Shown here piece by piece: positions 16,770 through 30,515 of a stretch of 64,000 bases of DNA (position 1 is the stretch's first letter; the number at the start of each line of letters is the position of its first letter). The stretch lies in NCBI GenBank assembly GCA_023053545.1, contig JAKZAN010000004.1, forward strand, positions 12,313,235-12,377,234, in the 5' to 3' direction. This DNA comes from Lepidurus packardi. Its lineage: Eukaryota > Arthropoda > Branchiopoda > Notostraca > Triopsidae. Position numbers and translations under genes: made by a program. The notes under the pieces were generated by a model, which did no database searches, was not told the origin of the DNA, and saw only the letters and a program-made list of their open reading frames with translations.

Positions 16770-19700
16770 TCAACTCCCTATTTCCCAGATTTTTACATTC
16801 CTGCTCGGTTTCCCTCGCTTGATTGTCGAGCACGGACAAAGCTTGTTGCTAACAATGAATATACGCTCTTGCTCTTTGGGTAGGGACTGACTAATGTCCG
16901 CTTTGCACGCAAATCGCTTCACCACGCAGAAATAGAACATCTCCACAGCGCTCAACAAGCTAAAACCAAAGCCCAATCCAAGAAGCCCACCTGTAGCAGC
17001 TGTGAACCATAAAAAGTAAACAAAAAAATTCATTATAGCTACAAGAGCAGCTATGAATAGTAAAAAAAAGTTCATTACTACGTAAAAAAAAAGTCATAAT
17101 AATTATCTAAATTATAATAAAAATTATAGCTATAATAGCAGCTATGACTAGTAAAAAAAAGTTCATTACTAAGTAAAAAAAAAAAGTCATTATAAATCTC
17201 TAAATTATAATAAAAATTATAGCTACAATAGCAGCTATGAGTAGTAAAACAAAAATTCATTACTAAGTAAAAAAAAGTCATAATAATTATCTAAATTATA
17301 ATAAAAATTATAGCTACAATAGCAGTTATGAATAGTAAAAAAAAGTTCATTACTAAGAAAAAAAAGTCCTAATAGTTATCTAAATTATAATAAAAAATTA
17401 TAGCTACAATAGCAGCTATGACTAGTAAAAAAAAGTTCATTACTAAGTAAAAAAAATGTCATAATTATTATCTAAATGATAATAAAAATTATAGCTATAA
17501 TAGCAGTTATGAATAGTAAAAAAAAGTTCATTACTAAGTAAAAAAAAATCATAATAATTATCTAAATTATAATAAAAATTATAGCTACAATAGCAGCTAT
17601 GAGTAGTAAAACAAAAGTTCATTACTAAGTAAAGGCTGTTAAAAGTCATAATTATCTAAAATAAGTAAATTAGTAGAACAGAAATAGAATTTTTAAAAAA
17701 AAAACTTACAGATAAAGTCTTCCCATCGATAGCGCGTATCTTTCTTGTATCTTGTGATACGTTCATCTCGGAAATAGACGCGAAGCACAGCAATATTTTC
17801 CCTAAAAAAATTTACAAAAATGAAATTAAGTAAGGATTGTTGTAATGAACAGAATTGATTTACCTTATGTCGGTTAAATTGGTGTAAAAGGGGGTATATT
17901 TGCGTTGGTTTTTAATTTCGCGGAGTTTGAATCCTTTCCCAGGGTACGGAGTATTGATAACTTCGACTCCGTAGAAGATTTCGTCACAGGAAGGCAAACA
18001 TTCACAGATAGACGAGTTCTTCAAGCTAAATGACACATTGGCCAAGCATTCGTACTTTGCAATATCGCAACTCTCTGCCAACGTCCACTCTAAATCATCG
18101 AACTTCAATAAATTAACCGACTTAACGAATGAATTGAATTCAATGTAATGAATTGAATTGAATTTAATGAAATTGAATTTGAATTGAATTTTATTGAATT
18201 ATTGAATTTGATTATTGAATTTTAATTGAATTTTAATGAAATTGAATTTTAATGAAATTGAATTTGAATGAATTGAATTCAATGTAATGAATTGAATTCA
18301 TTTGAATTCAATTGCATTTAATGAAATTGAATTTGAATTGAATTTTATTGAATTATTGAATTTTATTATTGAATTGAATTTTATTATTGAATTGAATTCG
18401 AATGAAATTGAATTTGAATGAATTGAATTGAATGTAATGAATTGAATTCATTCATTGTTTAGCTTAATTGGACCTTAAAAAGTGAACTTACACAAACAGA
18501 ACATGCAGAAACTTTAAAAAAGTGAAAAATGGTTGAAACGAGGTACTATGTACTGTACTTGCAAAGTAATATGGCTGACATTGGCATTCCTCTTGCATTT
18601 GTTTAGCGGTACACATGGTATTGCATACGCTGTGGCTGTAATTCCCCATTTTGTCCGAAGGTTCTTTTTCGTCGAAGAATTTGCACCGTCGCGAACTGAT
18701 GGGCAGATTACGAACCGACGGGGTACTCGATACCTCACTACCCCCTATAGCTAGCAGAGTCTGGTGGCCTGGATGAGCAAGGAATGCGCGGTCCAATACT
18801 TGGGGGAAAATATCCGGTCTGTTAAGCGATACCTAAAAGAACGTGGAAACGCAATTCAGTTCAATTACGGATTTGTATTAATTTAATATAGTATAAAATT
18901 CATATATTTAATAATGTTATTTAATATAATAATAATAATAATATATACTATAAATACTAATATATAATATATACTAATATAAGAATATATTCTATAACAA
19001 GTTACTATTATTATATATTATGAGCATGTTTAATAATAAATATGTAATTATATAATGTAGTGAAATTGAATGAAGGTTAACTTATTTAATTTAGTTAGCT
19101 TTAATTATGTAGCATGTTATATATTATTAGCATGTTTAATAATAAATATGTAATTATATAAGGTAACCAAATTGAATGAAGGTGAACTTATTTAATTTAG
19201 TTAGAGTTAGTTTTATTAAAAGTTTACTTTAAATCCATTGGTACTGCTGGCAATTACTCCGTAGTCATCCAGCTGGGCATCGAGTATTACGCGTAACCCT
19301 CTGCTGGTACCCGCTCCGGCGGTATAGATCGCAGGATACGCATTACTCAAGGCGAACGAATTGAAAACGCAGCAAAAGCCTCTGGGAGTGGGCAACAGTT
19401 CGAACTTGTCATTGCAAACTTCTATGCCTTGCCAGGAGCAATCCACAATTATGTCGTCACAAGAGGGCGAGAACTGAATAGAAACACAATCCAAAACTTG
19501 GCTTTAGGATACATTACTAGCCAAAATATTACTTCTTGGAGAAGCTGAGCAAAGATTGCTCCAGTCAAATTAAACAATTTGAAGATCGACTTCATATCAT
19601 CCATATTAGTCTTTCTACCCATTGCTACGTCCAAATTGGTTCCAGTTCGAATTAATCGTTGGAATTCTTTCCCTCTGCTCAGCAATCTAAGGATAGTTTA

Positions 19701-20322
19701 TGTTTACAATCTTTGAATCATTATTGCATTATTTCTGCGACCGAAGAATCATTCGATACTATTTTTGTAATATTTAAAACCATATTTGCGTGGTCATTTG
19801 ATAGTATGTTTGCAATCTTAAAGTAATTTAAAAATTCTTAAAGTAATTATTATTAAAGTTTAAAATTTTAAAATTTTGAATCTTAAAATTTTAAATAAAT
19901 CCTTTACCCATGCTTTGCTAAATACGCCTGCAGTTTGCGGTTCGAGGCTTGGTTGACGTTGCAGATGGTAACGGTAGGGAAAGGAACGTTAGCAATGGAA
20001 TGACTCGTAGAATCAATAGTTGTTAGGATTGGATTCAGGGACCATTCTCTCCATACTTTCCAGCAGAGAAAGCCAGAAATTCCAAAGCCCAAACCGAAAG
20101 TAATACACCACATCCACCTTCCCCCCCCAAAAATAAATAAAAATAAAATAACCACAGCCAAAAGCTAATTTCCCTGATATAATAAGTGAATAATTAGGAT
20201 TTATTTTTGTACTTTTCCCAATTCCGCGAATCTTTGGATGCGATATACTTTAAGCCGTGCATAGAACTATTGCTTAGAAACTGGGCGAGTAGCAATTGCT
20301 GTCGACTGCGCTTCTTCGGCAT
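16770..20322 (-). CDS. DEG/ENaC (pickpocket-like) sodium channel
   Basis: Exons on the minus strand: 20322-20213, 20117-19908, 19686-19533, 19473-19228, 18832-18559, 18089-17864, 17801-17710, 16999-16770. This gives about 513 residues, normal for the family. Visible in order: the pre-TM1 HGLKYI segment, TM1 (WMWCITFGLGFGISGFLCW), the post-TM1 motif PFPTVTICN, a Cys-rich extracellular domain, and TM2 with the filter region GGLLGLGFGFSLLSAVE, which holds the G-x-S selectivity triplet. These trimeric channels pass sodium at the plasma membrane, gated by ligands or mechanical force; the stimulus cannot be read from sequence. The exon 5/6 junction is uncertain: 18554 joined to 18102 is also in phase. 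The start is the first ATG before HG; an extra 5' exon is possible. Introns 4, 5 and 7 hold repeats. Confidence 0.88.
17030..17640 (-). repeat. Intronic array derived from the exon 8 acceptor region
   Basis: About six units of roughly 100 bp lie in intron 7 of the DEG/ENaC gene. Each contains, on the coding strand, a T tract, then a TTCATAGCTGCTAT-like block and an AT-rich tail. That block resembles the genuine acceptor and start of exon 8 at 17010-16990 (TTCACAG|CTGCTAC). The whole array is immediately upstream of the true acceptor. Confidence 0.88.
18120..18455. repeat. GAATT/TTGAATT low-complexity array
   Basis: Irregular tandem array of TGAATTGAATT and related variants inside intron 5 of the DEG/ENaC gene. 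The array starts just beyond the uncertain exon 6 acceptor, so it may have disturbed or duplicated splice signals there. Confidence 0.88.
18880..19205. repeat. AT-rich intron segment with a 97-bp duplication
   Basis: A block containing GAGCATGTTTAATAATAAAT at about 19021 is repeated as TTAGCATGTTTAATAATAAA near 19128, with matching flanks (GAATGAAGGT, then ACTTATTTAATTTAG). It lies in intron 4 of the DEG/ENaC gene. The preceding 18880-19010 is a TA/TAA-rich tract. Confidence 0.75.
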
Positions 20323-20759
20323 TCCTGCAGTCGCCCAAAAGAATTTCTGCAGAGAAGTTAATTGCAACGATGACACTAGTACATCCACCTTTACTTTGAA
20401 ACTGCTCCGAGGACAATGGATTAATCAAGTAACACTACCAGTACCCTATATGCCTTTTATACGGCGAGAACGTTGACGGATATAGTTTTGTTTTTATATT
20501 CATATTGAGTGTTTTTTTTAGTGTTGTCATTCATGAATGTCCTCAACTGGCACACCTTGTTTCCGTGAGCGTAATTGAAGTCGATATTGTTAAGTGGTGT
20601 TTGTTTCTCTCTTGGAAAGGAGAATTGAATGACTAGATAAACAGCACGATGGATGGCCTTAGTCCTAATCACAAAAAGCCACGCATTCCAACTGAATTCG
20701 GTTGGTACAAGTAAATAATCAAGAAAATATACGTCTTGTAATTGAAATCTCTCTTTTTA
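20323..20759. other. Spacer between channel gene and DUF4832 cluster
   Basis: No coding segment is recognised. It probably contains the promoter and 5' UTR of the minus-strand DEG/ENaC gene. No TATA element or initiator is convincing. Confidence 0.4.
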
Positions 20760-20990
20760 GTCAATTTACCCTATGCGCGAATCTTGATCGGGGTATTTAC
20801 AAAGATGCGGAAACCATTCCTCAACCGTCACTAGATGGCAGCACTAGCTGGACCCCAGTGGCGGCAAACGCTCTTCCGGTCACGCTCATCCTAGCGACTT
20901 GACACGTGGGAGCTACAAAGTTATGCTATCTATCTTTCACGGGTTTCACTTTCACGTGCATCAGCCAAGGTTAAAAAGGTAATAAGGGGA
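20760..20990 (+). pseudogene. Broken DUF4874/DUF4832 copy
   Basis: The frame reads NLDRGIYKDAET, matching the N-terminal motif of the intact genes (for example NPDRGIYRHTET). It continues directly into IPQPSLDG, matching their C-terminal exon (SIPQPSIDA). Everything between, some 300 codons and three introns, is missing. A stop follows at about 20899, and a recognisable GSYKVMLSI block then continues in another frame, so the copy is also frameshifted. It is the first member of the tandem cluster and shows a fourth duplication that decayed by internal deletion. Confidence 0.75.
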
Positions 20991-21269
20991 AATTATGCTG
21001 GTAACAAGCTTTGGAGCCTACGCCCGCTATTTGAAAAACAAAGGGAAATTAAGTCTATAGTATACTGTTTTCGTCAGACCAGATACACAGGCAAGAAACC
21101 AAACAACAACAAACACAATAGTGCTAAAGATACTCCATTTACAGGGGGAACTGCTGACCATATAGGGAAGAGTTTGATGAGTCATGCACTTGATGATTTT
21201 TCAGGATTCTTCCTACACAAGGAAACTAGAGTTGAACCCGCCTTCCAATTTGTCTTAAAAAATAATGAT

Positions 21270-21790
21270 CGTCCTGCATGAACTTCAAAACACGCTGTTT
21301 ACCTGGGACTTGGGGAAAATTCGGTAACTACTTCCTTATTGCTCTAGAACAATGTGGTAATGATTCAGATTCGTCTATTTTACCTACGTTTTCTCAAACC
21401 ATTGATAAAAGTGGTCGGAACATACGGCGCAGTCAATTTGAACACCGAACACGCGTTAATTTTGAAACGAATCATTAAGTAGTCATTGTAAACTCAGAAG
21501 GTAGTTATACAACATGACTGACAAGCTGAATGAACTTCAAAACACGCTGTTTACCACGTTAAACACGTTCTTTATGCGTGTTTTGAACTTCAAAACACGC
21601 TGTTTGGGACTTGGGGAAAATTCATGACTACTTATTGCTGTAGAACAATGTGGTAATGATTCAGAGTCGTCTATTTTACCTACGTTTTCTCAAACCAGTG
21701 ATAAAAGTGGTCGGAACATACGGCGCAATCAATTTGAACACCGAACACGCGTTAATTTTGAAACGTAATAATTAAGTGCAGTCATTGTTA
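21270..21790. repeat. Tandem duplication upstream of DUF4832 gene A
   Basis: A segment starting GAACTTCAAAACACGCTGTT at about 21279 recurs at about 21531 and again partially at 21584. The blocks TGGTAATGATTCAGA, GATAAAAGTGGTCGGAACAT and GAACACCGAACACGCG are shared by the long copies. The duplication ends about 100 bp before the TATA box of gene A. Confidence 0.85.
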
Positions 21791-21884
21791 ACACAGAAGG
21801 TGCGATACAACATGACTGACAAGAACAGTGGAGGGAGTGACGTGGCAGAAATATGAACTCGAGCGTTTTTCCTGGTTTGAGGCG

Positions 21885-21916
21885 TATATAAGGGAGTTAT
21901 ACCAGGAAAAATCAGT
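21885..21916 (+). promoter_or_regulatory. Core promoter of DUF4832 gene A (TATA + Inr)
   Basis: TATATAAG at 21885-21892 is followed by ATCAGTA at 21911-21917. TCAGT is the classic arthropod initiator and the spacing, about 29 bp, is what TFIID expects. The predicted 5' UTR to the ATG at 21963 would be about 50 nt. A TATA promoter suggests strongly regulated or tissue-specific expression. Confidence 0.7.
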
Positions 21917-21962
21917 ATTAATAGGTTTAAACCTCCCTTGTGTTGCATACAAAGTATCCATA

Positions 21963-24083
21963 ATGCTTTTCACGGTTTTATTTGCGTTTCTTGTTGTAGA
22001 TAATCACGCCCTTGAAGCAAGTTCAACTGACAGAGGTAAATAAGACAGAAATGAACAAAAAATGAAAGAAATTAACCAGCATAATCTCACATTACTAATC
22101 CCCGATGTATTGTTTTGATTTCTGAATATATTTCTTTGTATTTCTAGCGAATTTGGCGGACGTTTTCAACCCTGATAGAGGCATTTACAGACATACCGAA
22201 ACCCGATCGAGTGCATACGAACCTTTATACCCGTCCGATCTTCAGAATTGGCGAGACAATGAAGCTATTTCTTTAGTCTTTCGTAATTTTGTACTGGACA
22301 CCTTCACCTCTAAAGATATCACTGCAAGTCATCTAACCACGATCAGAAATGATCTGGAAGTCATCAAAAGCGCCTCCTTGAAAGCCATTGTGCGCTTCTG
22401 CTATTCTTTGGAGAGCAGCAAAGATGCAAACCGAACTCAAGCGCTACGCCACATCGTACAACTCACACCCATTCTAAAAGTACGTAATATTGTACTCGGG
22501 TGAGTACAATAACACAATAATAACCGGAGGTACATCTATAGGATTACGCGAGCGTTATAAGCGTGGTCCAAGCCGGCATCATTGGCAAATTTGGTGAATG
22601 GTTTTATACCGATAAAATGAAAACGTCCGGAGATCGTATTGCAATTTTGAACGCTTTGATCGCTGCTGTTCCGCAGGAAATTATGGTCCAAGTCCGAACT
22701 CCTGCTTATAAACAAGTACGCCTTGAAGTTTTTCTTTAATTTCCTGGACAGTAATGTAAGTAATACCAATATGCAGAGGGTTGACACTTAATCTTTTTAC
22801 ATTTTTGCCTGGAGTAATTTAAAAAATACAAATTAACATCTCACTTATGCAAAAACTAGCAAGATGGTCGATTTGGAAATTGGCATGATTTTATTGCATA
22901 TTTATTGCATATTATTGATTATATTATTGATATTATTGATTATATTATTGATTATATTATTGATATTATTGATATATATTGATATTGATTATTGATATCG
23001 ATATCTTATTGATATCTTATTGGTATTTTATTGATATCAATATTGATATTGATTGATATATATTGATATTATTGATTGATAAGGTTATTCTGCTTGCCGT
23101 TTTATTGCGCAGAAGCCATGCGCGTTCATATACTCTCTACCAAACACTGCGCGCCACCTAGCGATAGCTTGGGTGTAATAAGCAAAGCTATGCATATACT
23201 ACTACCATTACTAAATAATAATTCTTTTGTCATTGTTATTGTAATTATGAAATATTGTTTAGTTACTGTACACGGTTTTTTTCAGGAAAAATGCGGTACA
23301 ACCACACTGACAACCCAAACGGCTCTCACTGGTGCCACTTGTGCACGTATTGGTTTGTATAATGATTGTTTCTTGGCCAAGGATAACGATCAAGGGACTT
23401 TCCGGTCGACTAGTGTTGCAGCAGACCAGGCATACTTCGCTACCGAATCGCTGTACACCGTAGTAGGTGGAGAGACATGTTCGGTTAACGCACCGAGGAC
23501 GGATTGCTCTAACGCCTTGGTCGAAATTAAGAAGTACCATTATACATTCTTGAACAAGGACTGGAACACGGCAGTCGTAAATGGATGGATCAGTGCGGGT
23601 TGCTATACGAACCTCAAATCAACACTAGGTTACCGATACCAAATGGGCTCCGTCAGTGTACCAACTACTGTAACCAGAGGTCGAACGGCAACTTTTACAG
23701 TTAGCATAACGAATACTGGAGCTGCCTCTTTGTTCAACGCTTACGCTGCTCAAGTAAAAACAAACTTTTAACATTATAAATGGTTATTGACGTGAGTTAT
23801 TCGTAAATGTATATCCATATAGGTGATCCTCAAAAGTACCACCACGTCTCGAAGCATTCCTCAACCATCGATTGACGCTCGAAAATGGGCTGCAGGGGCG
23901 ACAAACGTTGTTTCGGCTACCATAACTGTCCCTACGGACTTGCCAGTCGGAAGCTACGAAGTTCTGCTAAATATCTACGATGCCAAGCGCCCTACGACCA
24001 GATACGCTCGAATTGTTGTCATCAACTCCGGGGTAGCTACCTCCGACCGTTACAACAAGCTGGGTACCACGACTGTAGCCTAA
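21963..24083 (+). CDS. Secreted DUF4874/DUF4832 protein, gene A
   Basis: Exons 21963-22035, 22148-22479, 22542-22715, 23286-23753 and 23823-24083 give 435 residues. Exon 1 encodes a signal peptide (MLFTVLFAFLVV). The mature N-terminal half is DUF4874-like: NPDRGIYR, then RFCYSL. GKFGEWFYT follows, and then a DUF4832-like C-terminal half with ATCARIGLYNDCF, GGETC and GYRYQMGS, ending in a beta-rich GSYEVLL region. The family is known mainly from bacterial extracellular proteins and has no established reaction. A glycosidase-like barrel is plausible but is inference from the invariant Glu after GxxG. Intron positions and phases (1,0,0,0) are identical in genes B and C. Intron 3 (570 nt) holds an AT-rich array. 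Confidence 0.85.
22905..23080. repeat. ATTGATAT-type array in intron 3 of gene A
   Basis: Irregular tandem TATTGATTATATTATTGAT and ATTGATATCGATATC variants. The orthologous intron of gene C carries a different array, while in gene B it is only 70 nt. Confidence 0.85.
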
Positions 24084-24797
24084 AACTACGGTCAACTCGA
24101 CACCAGAAAGAGGGATTGAATTCCTTATGTGTGAAGTTTTCTCAGCTTTAGTGGGTGACTGGGGTTAATTTATATCTTAGTGTTTAAGGATATGTAATTT
24201 CCATTCAAAACATACAATGTATAACGACAAGAAATCTCTACACACATTTTGTAGCGGTTCGCTAGTTTAACCGGGCTAACGGCGGTCGTTGAGAAGGGTT
24301 GTCGTATAGCAAGTGAGGAGCGAACAGACTTGAGGTGTGGAGGCGTGGCCAAACCGCACCCGACAACATTCAGATTACTTAATTAAATTTAATTCATTCT
24401 GCACCTTGATATGATAGCTTTGCCTTTTCTATGCAAGAATACCATGTTTATATCTGAAAGGCAACATCTTATGAAATAATTGTAATATTTTTCATAGTAG
24501 AAAGAAGAAAAATATGGGTATTACGTAGTAGTTTTCTTTCCAGGTTCTAAACAATGTGCGCAATAAGCTTGGGCTAAGCTAATAAATAACCTTTCTCAAT
24601 AAGATTAGGACGAGATAACGACTACTTCCTAGTCACTAAACTAGTTACTGTTATCAGTCATGGAGTCTTATTTAAAGAATATTTTTACACTAACATAACA
24701 AGCCATTCAAGCTATCATAACTTATCATCAGCGTTAGAGCATTTCAGTGCATGTCTACAAGTAGAAATACGCAGTAAAAAGTTGAATAAAATCTAAA
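24084..24797. other. Intergenic spacer between genes A and B
   Basis: No gene is seen. A TATTTAAAG at 24669-24677, about 130 bp before the gene B ATG, could be a TATA-like element, but there is no good initiator at the right distance, so I do not call a promoter. Confidence 0.4.
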
Positions 24798-26530
24798 ATG
24801 GTACAGTTTGTGTTGTTGGGCATGCTATTCATGGTGCATGCAAGTAAAGCCCCTCCTCCCGAAGGTGAGCAACAATGAATACAAAAATAAACAAAGTATT
24901 TAAAATGAACTACGTTTTAAGATAGTTTAAAAAAAGCTTTAACTATGTTATATAATAATGCTATTATTATTTAACGCACTTCCAAAAAATCATGCAAGTT
25001 TTGACGACTGATTTTTTTCTTTTTTATTATTATTTTCAGCTGCAGAAATCTTGAATCCTGAACGTGGTTTCTACCATTTCGCGGAAACTCTTTCCAGTTC
25101 CCATGAACCGCTTATCTTGGAAGATTTGCTCGCCGCACGTGACAATGAAGCCAACAGTCTTGTTTTTCGTAACTTTGTATTGGACGACTTTGTTTTCGAT
25201 GACATCTCATCCAACTTCCTCAATCTGATAAAGGCCGACTTTGAAACTGTACGAAAAGCCGAAATGAAAGCTATTGTGCGCTTTTGCTACTCTTTAGAAA
25301 ACTCCCAAGATGCCGAATTGCCCCAATTACTGCGTCACATTGACCAGCTATCTTCCATTTTCGGGGTATATGAACAGTTTTAATTGTCAAGTTTTAAGTT
25401 TTTCAATTGTCAGAATTAATCTCAATTTCACGCAATTACTCTTAAACTATTTTCCAGGAATATGAAGATAGTATTAACGTTTTGCAAGCTGGATTTATCG
25501 GCCAATGGGGAGAATGGTACTACTCTGATAACTACAACAGTGACGTTCATGTTCCCACGCCTGCGCAGCAACAAGATCGGGAAACTATTGTTTTAGCCCT
25601 TCTTTCAGCATTACCTGTCTCCCGAATGGTTCAGCTCAGGACTCCAGACATGAAGCAGGTCAAATTATTCTAAGATGTGTTGGTGTAAAAGCTGGATAAA
25701 CTTAAAGGTAATGGATGTTAATTTTTAGAAAATATGTGGAGTTCAAAATCTTATAGCGGACGATGCGTTCTCGGGGGAGCCTTGCGCCCGATTAGGACTA
25801 CATAATGATTGTTTCCTTGCAAGTGGCAATGACATGGGCACCTTTGAAGACGATTCCGAGAAAACGTATTTCGCCCAGGAAACTGCGTTTGTCATGTCTG
25901 GTGGCGAGACATGCCAAGTGAACGCACCTCGCTCTGACTGCGACAATACCAAATCCGAGTTGACTCGCTATCACTACTCCAACATGAACCAAGATTACCA
26001 CCCGAATGTCATTCAAGGCTGGAAAGACGGCGGCTGCTTTACCACCATTAAACACATGATGGGCTATCGATTGGTTTTCAATGGAGCGTCAATTCCTGCA
26101 ACTATACAACGCGGGGAAACGTTTCCTGTAAGCTTCACCATAGGAAATACCGGGACTGCCTCGCTTTACAATCCACGCGGAGTTGAAGTAATTCGACATT
26201 AGTGGACTGTGAATTCTTTTTGAATTGAGTTTCATTTACTTAAATATGGTTCTCTGTTCTTAGATATTGCTAAGGCATCAAGACAGTCAAGACGTGACTG
26301 CATTCCCGCAACCTAATGTGGATCTAAGAAGATGGGGTCATGCAACGAATAACACGATTAAAGCTACCTTAAATCTGCCATCAGCGGCAAACACGGGCAG
26401 TTATGATGTTTTGCTCAGTCTGTTCGATCCGCTCCAGAAGTCTAGTGAGTTAAATCGTATAGTGCTCGTTTCGAGCGGGATTGCTACCACAGAGCGTTAC
26501 AATTTAATGGGAACTCTACGCGTAAGTTGA
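24798..26530 (+). CDS. Secreted DUF4874/DUF4832 protein, gene B
   Basis: Exons 24798-24864, 25040-25365, 25458-25658, 25729-26187 and 26264-26530 give 439 residues. Exon 1 is a short signal peptide (MVQFVLLGMLFMVHA). Family motifs in order: NPERGFYHFAET, FRNFVLDDF, RFCYSLENS, GFIGQWGEWYYSDNYN, PCARLGLHNDCFL, GGETCQVNAPRSDC, GYRLVFNGA and GSYDVLLSLFDPLQKSS. This copy is closest to the bacterial pattern at GxWGEW. It lies head to tail with genes A and C and shares their intron positions, so the array arose by duplication after the introns were present. Its introns are all short (70-175 nt). Substrate and biological role are unknown; extracellular location follows from the signal peptide. Confidence 0.87.
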
Positions 26531-26946
26531 GCTGGATTAATATAACTAACGGTTTGTTATTGGAGTAAAAAGGCGTGGCGTAATTTTAATAGTACAAGCA
26601 TTATTAAAATAATTAATGCGATTTTAAACATGATTTGGACCGCATAATTGCTTTGTCTTAATGTACTGTTAAACCGAAATTACATTTTTAAATTAAATTT
26701 ACATTACAATTACATTTTCTAATTCAAATTACATTTCTAATTCAACATAGCCTCAATTTTACTTGGAAAAAGTTAAATATCACAGCTGTTGTAAAGTATT
26801 TCTGCTGCTAATCTTTACTGTATGCATTACCAATTTCGATTCCTTTTCAAACGATATAAATTTAGTTTTTTGTTAAGCTTCATTCTTAAAGTATGTTGTC
26901 TCCAAGACCGCCATCTATCTACAAGTTTGAGCTTTTCTTCATTTTC
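26531..26946. other. Intergenic spacer after gene B
   Basis: AT-rich. A short run of AAATTACATTT-like repeats lies at 26680-26735. No coding sequence is recognised. Confidence 0.45.
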
Positions 26947-27345
26947 TTTTAGTATCGAGTATCGCAATAACTTCCGTAAAGTCATCCAAATCGTGAACAA
27001 AACTGATTAACACGATTAACACAAAACTGATTGTTTACGATACTCGATACTAAAAGAAAATGTTCTTTTAGTATCGAGAAAATGTTCAAGAAAATGGTTT
27101 TGCTTTGCTTGCTTTTAGTATCAAGAAAATGTTCTTTTAGTATCGAGTATCGCAATAATTTTCGCAAAGTCATCCAAATCGTGAACAAAACTGATTAACA
27201 CGATTAACACAAAACTGATTGTTTACGATACTCGATACTAAAAGAAAATGTTCTTTTAGTATCGAGTATCGCAATACCTTTCGCAAAGTCATCCAAATCG
27301 TGAACAGAACTGATTAACACGATTAACACAAAACTGATTGTTTGC
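26947..27345. repeat. Palindrome-bounded tandem units upstream of gene C
   Basis: Units of about 110 bp begin with TTTTAGTATCGAGTATCG and end with its inverted copy, CGATACTCGATACTAAAA. Complete units lie at about 26949-27056 and 27135-27244. A third begins at 27254 but loses its right end. Between the first two, a shorter piece repeats AGTATCGAGAAAATG. The internal part includes two GATTAACAC words. The structure looks like a small MITE that became tandem. Confidence 0.82.
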
Positions 27346-27394
27346 GTACGTACACGTACGATGACGTTTACGTACTTACGTTTCGTGGGAAGAA

Positions 27395-27402
27395 TATATA
27401 AG
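27395..27402 (+). promoter_or_regulatory. Putative TATA box of DUF4832 gene C
   Basis: TATATAAG at 27395-27402 has the same octamer as the gene A promoter. It follows a CGTACGTACACGTACG near-palindrome at 27345-27360. No TCAGT initiator is seen at +30, and the ATG is about 230 bp downstream, so this is weaker than the gene A promoter. Confidence 0.45.
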
Positions 27403-27628
27403 GAGAACAAAGAAAGATTTCTTTATATAAGAATTGACACGGGAGAAAATTCAGGAGGTTCTGTTTGGTCGTTTTATTGTATATTTTGTCATTTGTCATA
27501 GCGTTTTGTCTCCCAAAGAAAAACAAGCGTGCCAGGTCATAAGCAGGCCTAAGTAATAAAACCAGAGCGACTCGAAAGTTGTAACTAGTTCTTTAACAAA
27601 CTCCCAACGACGACAAAGTGCTGCTGCC

Positions 27629-30515
27629 ATGATCGTGCTACTTTTCTTGCTCGTAAGTGTAAACCAACTGTTATTAACCGAATCCATAGAATGTCGAAAA
27701 GCAGAATTGCCTAAAGGTAAGTGATCCCAACTTTAAAACTTACCAAATTAAAAAAAATAATAATGTAAAAATAATATAAAATAATATAAAAATAATAATG
27801 TTAATACATAGTAATAAAAATAATTTGCTTAAAAATTATCACTGTTTACGCCAACAGACTTTAACCCTGAACGAGGCTTTGCGCGCTACACGCAAGGTAT
27901 TGCCTCGGACATGACGCCATTAACTGCCGACTTAATAAGCGCATGGAGAGATGAAGGAAGTTCTTTAGTTTCTCGCATCTTTGTCTTGGATCAATTCATG
28001 GAAGGCGACATAAGCGAAGGATTCTTGGGGCAAATAGGAACCGATTTGAATACCGTGCGTACCGCGGAGCTGAAAGTCAACCTCCGTTTTTGTTACAGCC
28101 TAGTTAATTCCATGGATGCTCCCTCGGATCAGGTCTTGAAACATATTGCCCAACTGAAACCTGTTTTGCAAGTAAGATGAATACGAAGGGTGGATAGTTT
28201 ATAATTGCTGGAAAATGGATTCCTAGACGTACGCGGACACAATTAATGTCCTCGAAGCCGGATTCATAGGCCAATTTGGGGAATGGTACTACTCCAACAA
28301 CTTCAACACAGCGCCTAAGTATATCCCAACTGTCGAGCAACTCCAAAAACGGAAAGAAGTACTATGGGCCTTGTTGGACGCCTTACCGTCGTCTAGAATG
28401 ATCGCCGTTCGTTCTCCGGCCATCAAAAAAGTATCACAACACTGCCAAAACAAACTTGACCAGACTGGTCTGATCAATAAATCGAACCTTTTAATCATTA
28501 AATATTTATTTTGAATGCATTGCATACATTTAGTTGGAAAATTATACTATCAACAGATGATTTGTGATGTCAACATATGACTTGAATCATCTGATATCAC
28601 CTGAATCATGCATTTGAATCATCCATTTGAATCATCTGATTTGTTCATATCAGATGATTTGAATGCATTGCATACATTTAATTGAAAAATTATACTATCA
28701 ACTATCAACAGATGATTTGTGATATCAACATATGACTTGAATCATCTGATATCATCTGAATCATCTGATTTGAATCATGCATTTGAATCATCCATTTGAA
28801 TCATATGATTTGTTCATATCAGATGATTTGGTATCATCTGATATCAACAGATGATTTGAATGCATTGCATACATTATATTGAAAAATTATACTATCAACT
28901 ATCAACAGATGATTTGTGATATCAACATATGACTTGAATCATCTGATATCATCTGAATCATGCATTTGAATCATCCATTTGAATCATCTGATTTGTTCAT
29001 ATCAGATGATTTGAATGCATTGCATACATTTAATTGAAAATTATACTATCAACTATCAACAGATGATTTGTGATATCAACATATGGCTTGAATCATCTGA
29101 TATCATCTGAATCATCTGATCTGAATCATCCATTTGAATCATCTGATTTGTTGATATTTGATGATTTGATATCATCTGGTATCAACAGATGATTTGAATG
29201 CATTGCATACATTTAATTGAAAAAGTATACTATCAACTATCAACAGATATGTGATATCAACATATGACTTGAATCATCTGATTTGAATCATGCATTTGAA
29301 TCATCAATTTGAATCATATGATTTGTTGAAATCAGATGATTTGATATCATCTGATATCAACAGATGATTTGTGATATCAACATATGACTTGAATCATCTG
29401 ATATCACCTGAATCATCTGATGTGAATCATGCATTTGAATCATCAATTTGAATCATCTGATATCAACAGATTTGAATGCATTGCATACATTTAATTGAAA
29501 AATTATATTATCAACTATCAACAGATGATTTCTGATATCACATATGACTTGAATCATCTGATATCACCTGAATCATCTGATTTGAATCATGCATTTGAAT
29601 CATCTGATATGAACAGATGATTTGAATGCATTGCATACATTTAATGGAAAAATTATATTATCAACAGATGATTTGTGGAACTCAAAATCTGCGCGCCAAT
29701 GAATCCTTCAAGGGCACTAACTGCTCTCGCATCGGTTTCCATAATGAATGCTTCCTGGCTGATAACTGCGATCAAGAAGCTTTTGCTAATTCGACGGAAA
29801 AGAATTACTACGCGAAAGAAGGCCTGTTGGTCGTAAGCGGGGGAGAGGTTTCTGAACGAAACTCACGCACGGACAACTGTGGCAACGTCGAACAAGAAAT
29901 CCTCAGGAACCATATATCCTACCTGAACCACGACTATAACCCCGACACGATTAATTATTGGACTGGAAGGCGTTGCTATGACTCAATCGAACGCAATTTG
30001 GGCTACCGATTCATCCTGAAGGATGCCAGAGTTTCCCCAGCCGCTGTTAAACGAAATAAGAATGTAACAGTCAGTTTTACCATCAGCAATGTTGGCTCCG
30101 CCCCTTTGTACAACCCACGCGGAATGGAAGTAAACACAACCTTCAAACCTTCAATCTTAGCAATCTAAAATTTAAAAATAAAAATAAGAGTTAGTAAAAT
30201 GTCTTACGTTTTGTCCAGGTTATACTGCGACACCTCAAAACGGGTAATAACGTTACGTTCCCCCATGAAATGGATCCTCGCAACTGGGCACCCGGCACTA
30301 GCCAAAACATAAACTTGCAACTGAGGTTGGAGTCTTACGTACTGGCGACTGGAAATTATGAAGTCTTACTCAGCCTGTACGATCCGTTGCAGAAAAGTAG
30401 CCGGTTAAACCGCATTGCGTTGTTCCCAGCTAATGTTGTTACCTCCGAGCGCTATAATGTGTTGGGGAAGGTGTCAGTATTGTTTGCTGAGATGCCGGAA
30501 CGAATTTTAGCCTAA
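27629..30515 (+). CDS. Secreted DUF4874/DUF4832 protein, gene C
   Basis: Exons 27629-27716, 27858-28171, 28227-28430, 29668-30129 and 30219-30515 give 454 residues. The signal peptide is MIVLLFLLVSVNQLLL. Motifs: NPERGFARYTQG, RIFVLDQF, RFCYSLVNS, GFIGQFGEWYYSNN, NCSRIGFHNECFL, GYRFILKDA and GNYEVLLSLYDPLQKSS. It differs from A and B where they have GGETC-x-VN: here the stretch is GGEVSERNSRTDNC. The first Cys is lost and the second shifted by one residue, so a disulfide or binding loop may be altered. The C-terminus is about ten residues longer. Intron 3 (1237 nt) is filled by a tandem array that includes the exon 4 acceptor. No frameshift or stop is seen. Confidence 0.85.
28510..29667 (+). 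repeat. Intron 3 array of gene C containing its own splice acceptor
   Basis: About seven units of 145-190 bp begin around TTTGAATGCATTGCATACAT at about 28513, 28669, 28855, 29010, 29194, 29469 and 29612. They include the block TATCAACAG, then ATGATTTGTG, and then many CATCTGATATCA and AATCATGCATTTGAATCAT words. The last unit runs into the genuine acceptor TATCAACAG|ATGATTTGTGGAACTC of exon 4, so every unit carries a copy of the acceptor and the first ten exon bases. Confidence 0.93.

Follow-up and report, generated by a model that had tools for sequence, protein, structure and literature searches.

The 64,000-nt stretch of Lepidurus packardi DNA analyzed here (the window, C3:12313235-12377234; contig C3 measures 12.9 Mb and the assembly 108.6 Mb) carries three intact five-exon genes, A, B, and C, arranged head to tail in tandem, plus a decayed fragment at about 20757-20985. 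All three encode proteins of the family defined by the Pfam domains DUF4874 (PF16173) and DUF4832 (PF16116). The reading that we favor overall, with about even confidence, is that A-C form a paralogous set of secreted glycoside hydrolases (GHs) cutting a microbial amino-sugar matrix polysaccharide. Their membership in the glycosidase class is quite probable, because the fold and the gene context of DUF4874-DUF4832 proteins both point there; a polysaccharide of N-acetylgalactosamine or galactosamine (GalNAc/GalN) as the substrate is a tentative assignment, to which we give somewhat less than even weight. The gene models are as follows.

21963..24083, plus strand: gene A, exons 21963-22035, 22148-22479, 22542-22715, 23286-23753, and 23823-24083; 435 aa.
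24798..26530, plus strand: gene B, exons 24798-24864, 25040-25365, 25458-25658, 25729-26187, and 26264-26530; 439 aa.
27629..30515, plus strand: gene C, exons 27629-27716, 27858-28171, 28227-28430, 29668-30129, and 30219-30515; 454 aa.

When the exons are concatenated by script and translated, the spliced frames contain no internal stops, and all 12 introns have GT-AG borders, which bears out the three intact five-exon genes in head-to-tail order that a first-pass annotation of the window had described. Introns 2, 3, and 4 are common to A, B, and C at alignment columns 137, 205, and 362, all in phase 0, which supports the view that these introns predate the duplications. The first-pass annotation had claimed this for all the shared introns; intron 1 has phase 1 in every gene, but it falls at columns 26, 28, and 31, inside a poorly alignable leader, and for it only the agreement in phase stands. 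Both A and C are 46% identical to B. Pairwise non-synonymous differences per site (pN) are 0.37-0.41 and synonymous ones (pS) 0.76-0.83, the latter saturated. Because pN is well below pS in all three pairs, the frames look to be under purifying selection, and because pS is saturated, the duplications appear to be old. The N-termini of A, B, and C are hydrophobic as judged by eye, and their signal peptides are putative.

Both Pfam models match A, B, and C in tandem, near full length and far above the gathering scores, with E values of 4.3e-45 to 1.7e-39 for DUF4874 and 1e-54 to 2.6e-48 for DUF4832, and the motifs NP(D/E)RG, RFCYSL, and GxxGEW are present in each protein; the tandem, secreted-looking DUF4874/DUF4832 family with these motifs was thus correctly recognized at first pass. 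No other Pfam family matches A-C at E 0.001, including GH5, GH14, and GH114 (PF03537). A search of NCBIfam with B gave no match, a search of PDB sequences turned up no convincing relative (best E 0.98 with B and 0.69 with a 78-row profile), a scan of viral contigs with B matched three stretches, none of them a relative, and the plasmid collection gave five records. The relatives are mainly bacterial, as had been stated: a scan of genome contigs from 84,980 species yielded at least 541 related loci among at least 596 candidates. The best 80 loci, kept for alignment and tree, reach 36-43% identity with B over their best segment and come from Bacteroidota, Actinomycetota, Chloroflexota, Myxococcota, Pseudomonadota, Planctomycetota, and Verrucomicrobiota. 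Two glutamates are invariant in 78/78 bacterial rows and are kept in A, B, and C. In addition, B retains nearly all the residues invariant in these rows, while A and C differ at several. The codons of the two glutamates are listed below.

22596..22598, plus strand: Glu154 of gene A (GEW), predicted to be catalytic, after barrel strand 4.
23472..23474, plus strand: Glu256 of gene A (GGE), predicted to be catalytic, after barrel strand 7.
25512..25514, plus strand: Glu150 of gene B (GEW).
25906..25908, plus strand: Glu258 of gene B (GGE).
28281..28283, plus strand: Glu153 of gene C (GEW).
29845..29847, plus strand: Glu262 of gene C (GGE).

A confident model of a bacterial relative shows a (beta/alpha)8 barrel followed by a C-terminal beta domain (predicted local distance difference test score, pLDDT, 95.9). 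Its closest fold matches are GH5 and GH14 glycosidases, mostly GH5 endoglucanases and xyloglucanases, so that the comparison with glycoside hydrolase barrels proposed at first pass gave a GH5/GH14-like barrel, for the bacterial protein and not for A-C themselves. Secondary structure and conservation place E147 and E255 of this model after strands 4 and 7. We infer that the animal proteins A-C take the same barrel fold. Folded by itself, the C-terminal domain (52 of the 78 rows) gave pLDDT 85.7, and many of its matches are GH3 beta-glucosidases; this fold search gave weak matches, with a best E of 1.2e-3 and none at or below 0.001. In the mechanism that we propose, DUF4874 and DUF4832 would jointly build a single (beta/alpha)8 barrel with a beta-sandwich C-terminal to it, and the glutamate after strand 4 (GEW) and that after strand 7 (GGE) would act as the acid/base and the nucleophile or base. 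A-C would cut extracellular polysaccharide, and the most likely substrate would be a Pel-kind GalNAc/GalN matrix of microbes, which a water-dwelling filter feeder would encounter in its gut or on its body surface. This presumes expression, secretion, and activity of the animal proteins, a substrate in common with the bacterial relatives, and an animal that lives by filter feeding.

The substrate assignment draws on gene neighborhoods. On a contaminant contig of the same assembly, the neighbors of a DUF4874-DUF4832 gene include PelF, the Pel synthase (118.8 bits, cut-off 100), GH114, and DUF2194. We searched for PelF in 49 genomes, which hold 50 of the best 80 loci chosen for spread, and in 14 control genomes, and PelF exceeds the cut-off in 24/49 genomes compared to 1/14 controls. 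At E 0.001 all 49 genomes and all 14 controls match, as the profile picks up other glycosyltransferases too. Linkage was then scored in 25 genomes selected for PelF matches, namely the 24 above the cut-off and one near miss. DUF4874 and PelF stand on one contig, 3.0-9.8 kb apart, in 19/25 of these genomes; GH114 lies on the same contig at no more than 15 kb in 18 of the 19 PelF-linked genomes, and DUF2194 was found in 19/25. The six unlinked genomes comprise two metagenome bins and three actinomycetes, with the genes on separate contigs, and one whose gene sits on a 4.6 kb contig. Linkage to the Pel locus thus holds for some bacterial relatives, a kind of evidence that does not extend to an animal gene. 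Outside the Flavobacterium type the neighbors are mixed, with SusD and PKD genes beside L034 and L093, a sodium-solute symporter and a ROK protein beside L072, and genes without an evident tie beside L019 and L074. GH43 and further sugar genes form another context, one that points away from Pel.

Several results weigh against the favored reading. PelF is below the cut-off in 25/49 genomes. Moreover, 17/19 of the pelF linkages form one syntenic Flavobacterium-type block, which leaves three independent lineages here, namely the block itself, a bin of Myxococcales (4.1 kb), and Winogradskya (3.0 kb), and the Winogradskya copy adjoining PelF differs from the copy that best matches the window. Beyond these three, published Bacillota Pel loci are also linked, two reports placing DUF4832 genes in Gram-positive Pel loci (PMC7112168, PMC12345266). 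The Foldseek template-modeling (TM) scores are low, at 0.15-0.53 in 50 rows, with no close solved structure, and the facing of E147 and E255 as a pair is a prediction, as is any coincidence of the two with the catalytic residues of GH5. SIR_1591, a DUF4832 protein of Streptococcus intermedius, is described in PMC12345266 as an active Pel-targeting glycoside hydrolase that breaks Pel-dependent aggregates, and its deletion is reported to give no aggregation phenotype. In Bacteroides finegoldii (L105:7887-11981), the DUF4874-DUF4832 unit is fused to a GH3 enzyme and an Fn3-like domain and adjoins GH16 and SusC/SusD genes, a context that suggests a glucan substrate.

The B. finegoldii fusion, the predominance of GH5 endoglucanases and xyloglucanases among the closest folds, and a dockerin-bearing relative from a rumen consortium, a Ruminococcus DUF4874-DUF4832-dockerin protein listed in PMC7480376, would all suit an alternative in which A-C are digestive enzymes, secreted glycosidases that act on beta-glucans of plants, algae, or fungi and not on an amino-sugar matrix. 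We consider this unlikely: barrels like that of GH5 are widespread, and having the fold in common does not reveal the substrate, the sole family activity found in the literature is that on Pel-dependent aggregates (PMC12345266), and pelF is linked in 19 of the 25 chosen genomes. The substitutions in A and C raise a different possibility, namely that at least one copy, most of all C, is no longer catalytic and has turned to glycan binding or another role. Compared to the bacterial consensus, C is altered at several columns invariant in the 78 rows (D221 to E, G231 to E, T232 to A, and C257 to S), which also counts against the favored reading, and it has the longest end branch (1.08), B having the shortest; A is altered at R87 to K, G90 to S, W145 to F, and Y285 to W. 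Loss of catalysis nevertheless seems improbable, since A, B, and C all retain the two glutamates predicted to be catalytic, and pN is well below pS in all three pairs. Secreted hydrolases of a microbial amino-sugar matrix remain our preferred reading.

We searched the assembly with DUF4874, DUF4832, and protein B, with counts taken as lower bounds, and found no further animal copy in the 108.6 Mb; the other matches lie only on contigs C333 and C42, both of which end within one intronless gene (the overlap was judged by eye). The part on C333, the contig with the sole GH114 match in the assembly, has a terminal sorting-domain-like tail by eye. In the tree this gene groups with 22 Bacteroidota rows, mostly Flavobacterium (support 100/99), and its neighbors resemble the Flavobacterium agri locus (64% identity for the DUF294 protein and 49% over 261 residues for the DUF2194 protein). 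Because of this placement and these neighbors, the gene is, from its sequence, a Flavobacterium-like bacterial contaminant. A contaminant carrying the same gene invites the explanation that A-C are themselves bacterial contamination or an assembly error. The 12 GT-AG introns and the 12.9 Mb contig, on which intron-bearing, animal-looking genes (by eye) flank the cluster on both sides, rule this out, and B is 38% identical to the contaminant protein. As for other sequences in the assembly, contigs C52, C43, and C214 are putatively bacterial and carry stop-free COX1-type frames, and the large contigs C1, C2, C4, C5, and C6 contain many COX1 stretches with in-frame TGA, which are likely mitochondrial insertions.

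The tree comprises 84 rows (A, B, C, and 81 bacterial sequences) and has a midpoint root only. A, B, and C form one clade (100/100), with B joined to C (99/89), on a stem of 0.68 and with no close bacterial group. Approximately unbiased (AU) tests that tied the animal clade to a bacterial group gave p 0.114 for the Flavobacterium-type clade, p 0.426 for Chloroflexota, and p 0.042 for an Actinomycetota/Pseudomonadota group, so neither the 84-row tree nor the AU tests, with comparison rows that are bacterial only, pick out a donor. An ancient eukaryotic family, retained in few lineages and without bacterial transfer, would agree with a midpoint-rooted clade that stands apart from all 81 bacterial rows with no donor, and with AU results that reject neither of the first two ties. 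We judge this origin rather unlikely, given the at least 541 bacterial loci and a literature search that found no named animal member, although this argument is weak, as the collection scanned is bacterial only. Also speculative, and on balance doubtful, is the full scenario in which a crustacean lineage took over a Pel-locus-type bacterial hydrolase, which would then have gained introns and a leader and expanded into a secreted family that breaks biofilm polysaccharide.

Two further features lie at the upstream end of the cluster.

20757..20985, plus strand: decayed fourth-copy fragment, an exon-2-like start adjoining exon-5-like sequence; frame lost.
21885..21916, plus strand: TATA box at 21885 and TCAGT initiator-like site at 21912, before gene A; 0.16 such TATA boxes are expected per 400 bases, and presence does not prove use.

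The fourth-copy remnant, about 230 bases spread over two frames, begins with NLDRGIYKDAET, which resembles exon 2 by eye. The piece at 20774-20899 scores 54 against exon 5 of A, a value that 0/2000 shuffles reach, by a narrow margin (best shuffle 52); against B and C, 19/2000 and 1118/2000 shuffles equal the score of the piece. Exon 5 carries on in the other frame with the piece at 20893-20985, which scores 50 against A (0/2000 shuffles, and 0/2000 for B and 4/2000 for C). A tblastn search with A, B, and C at E 0.01 did not return the fragment. The broken copy noted at first pass is thus probably a real but weak remnant, its exon-5 pieces exceeding the shuffles against A. As to the description of the family as promoter-bearing, in gene A TATATAAG stands 27 bases upstream of TCAGT; gene C has two TATA boxes but no TCAGT-type initiator, and gene B has TCAG(T/C) sites only and no TATA box. 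The claim as a whole is weak. A bacterial promoter scan upstream of gene A found nothing, which says little for the present host.

Upstream of gene A there is also a direct duplication of about 250 bases, 90% identical (21279-21525 and 21584-21823), and upstream of the cluster the minus strand at 17860-20164 carries exons that resemble a DEG/ENaC channel gene by eye. Intron 3 measures 570 bases in A (22716-23285), 1237 in C (28431-29667), and 70 in B, and tandem repeats fill it in A and C. Between B and C, at 26941-27349, lies a 119-base tandem unit with inverted stretches and 97% matches, which looks like a small mobile or satellite element. Elsewhere in the assembly we scored 150 cuticle chitin-binding matches, which mark the genome as that of an arthropod. 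We also found globin domains in pairs, with about 0.6 kb between the two; three such pairs lie at C3 8.69-8.70 Mb and a fourth at 8.58 Mb, and they are reminiscent of the two-domain hemoglobins of Daphnia-like branchiopods.

The first-pass annotation had also held that these domains have no assigned reaction and that the family is the best candidate in the window for an undescribed system. Neither statement is supported: PMC12345266 describes a DUF4832 protein as an active hydrolase that targets Pel, fold and context point to a glycosidase, and the family is already catalogued, that hydrolase and the dockerin-bearing relative (PMC7480376) being in print. The DUF4874-DUF4832 family is therefore known, while the animal tandem cluster and the Flavobacterium-type Pel linkage were not found in the literature searched. 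In that literature DUF4832 occurs in four papers and DUF4874 in one; the search gave no named animal member, the Pfam and InterPro accession numbers tried gave nothing, and the accessible portion of PMC13389597 names no DUF family. For a domain pair of unknown function there is now a prediction of enzyme activity that can be tested and that names two residues in each gene, and the Flavobacterium-type neighborhood of pelF, GH114, DUF2194, and DUF4874-DUF4832 extends the link described for Gram-positive Pel loci. If A-C do act on a Pel-like polymer, an animal would own an enzyme against a common biofilm matrix, with a bearing on filter feeding and host-microbe relations.

Among known systems, GH5 (clan GH-A) and GH14 differ from A-C in that A-C match neither in Pfam at E 0.001, and identities in the fold-match rows are 5-12%. 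The GH114 and GH166 galactosaminidases, represented by Ega3 and PelA, are similar in that GH114 neighbors the bacterial relatives and the substrate class is possibly related, although A-C have no GH114 match. SIR_1591 shares DUF4832, a barrel plus a beta domain with an N-terminal strand joined to the latter, and an extracellular location, but it is encoded by the polymer-making bacterium, and it is likened to A-C by its published description (PMC12345266) and not by sequence. Compared to the bacterial DUF4874-DUF4832 proteins, the animal copies have introns, an animal-looking leader, and a tandem arrangement, and they lack what many bacterial proteins carry, a type IX secretion system (T9SS) tail or an additional N-terminal region, while A-C match both models near full length and keep both invariant glutamates, as the bacterial proteins do.

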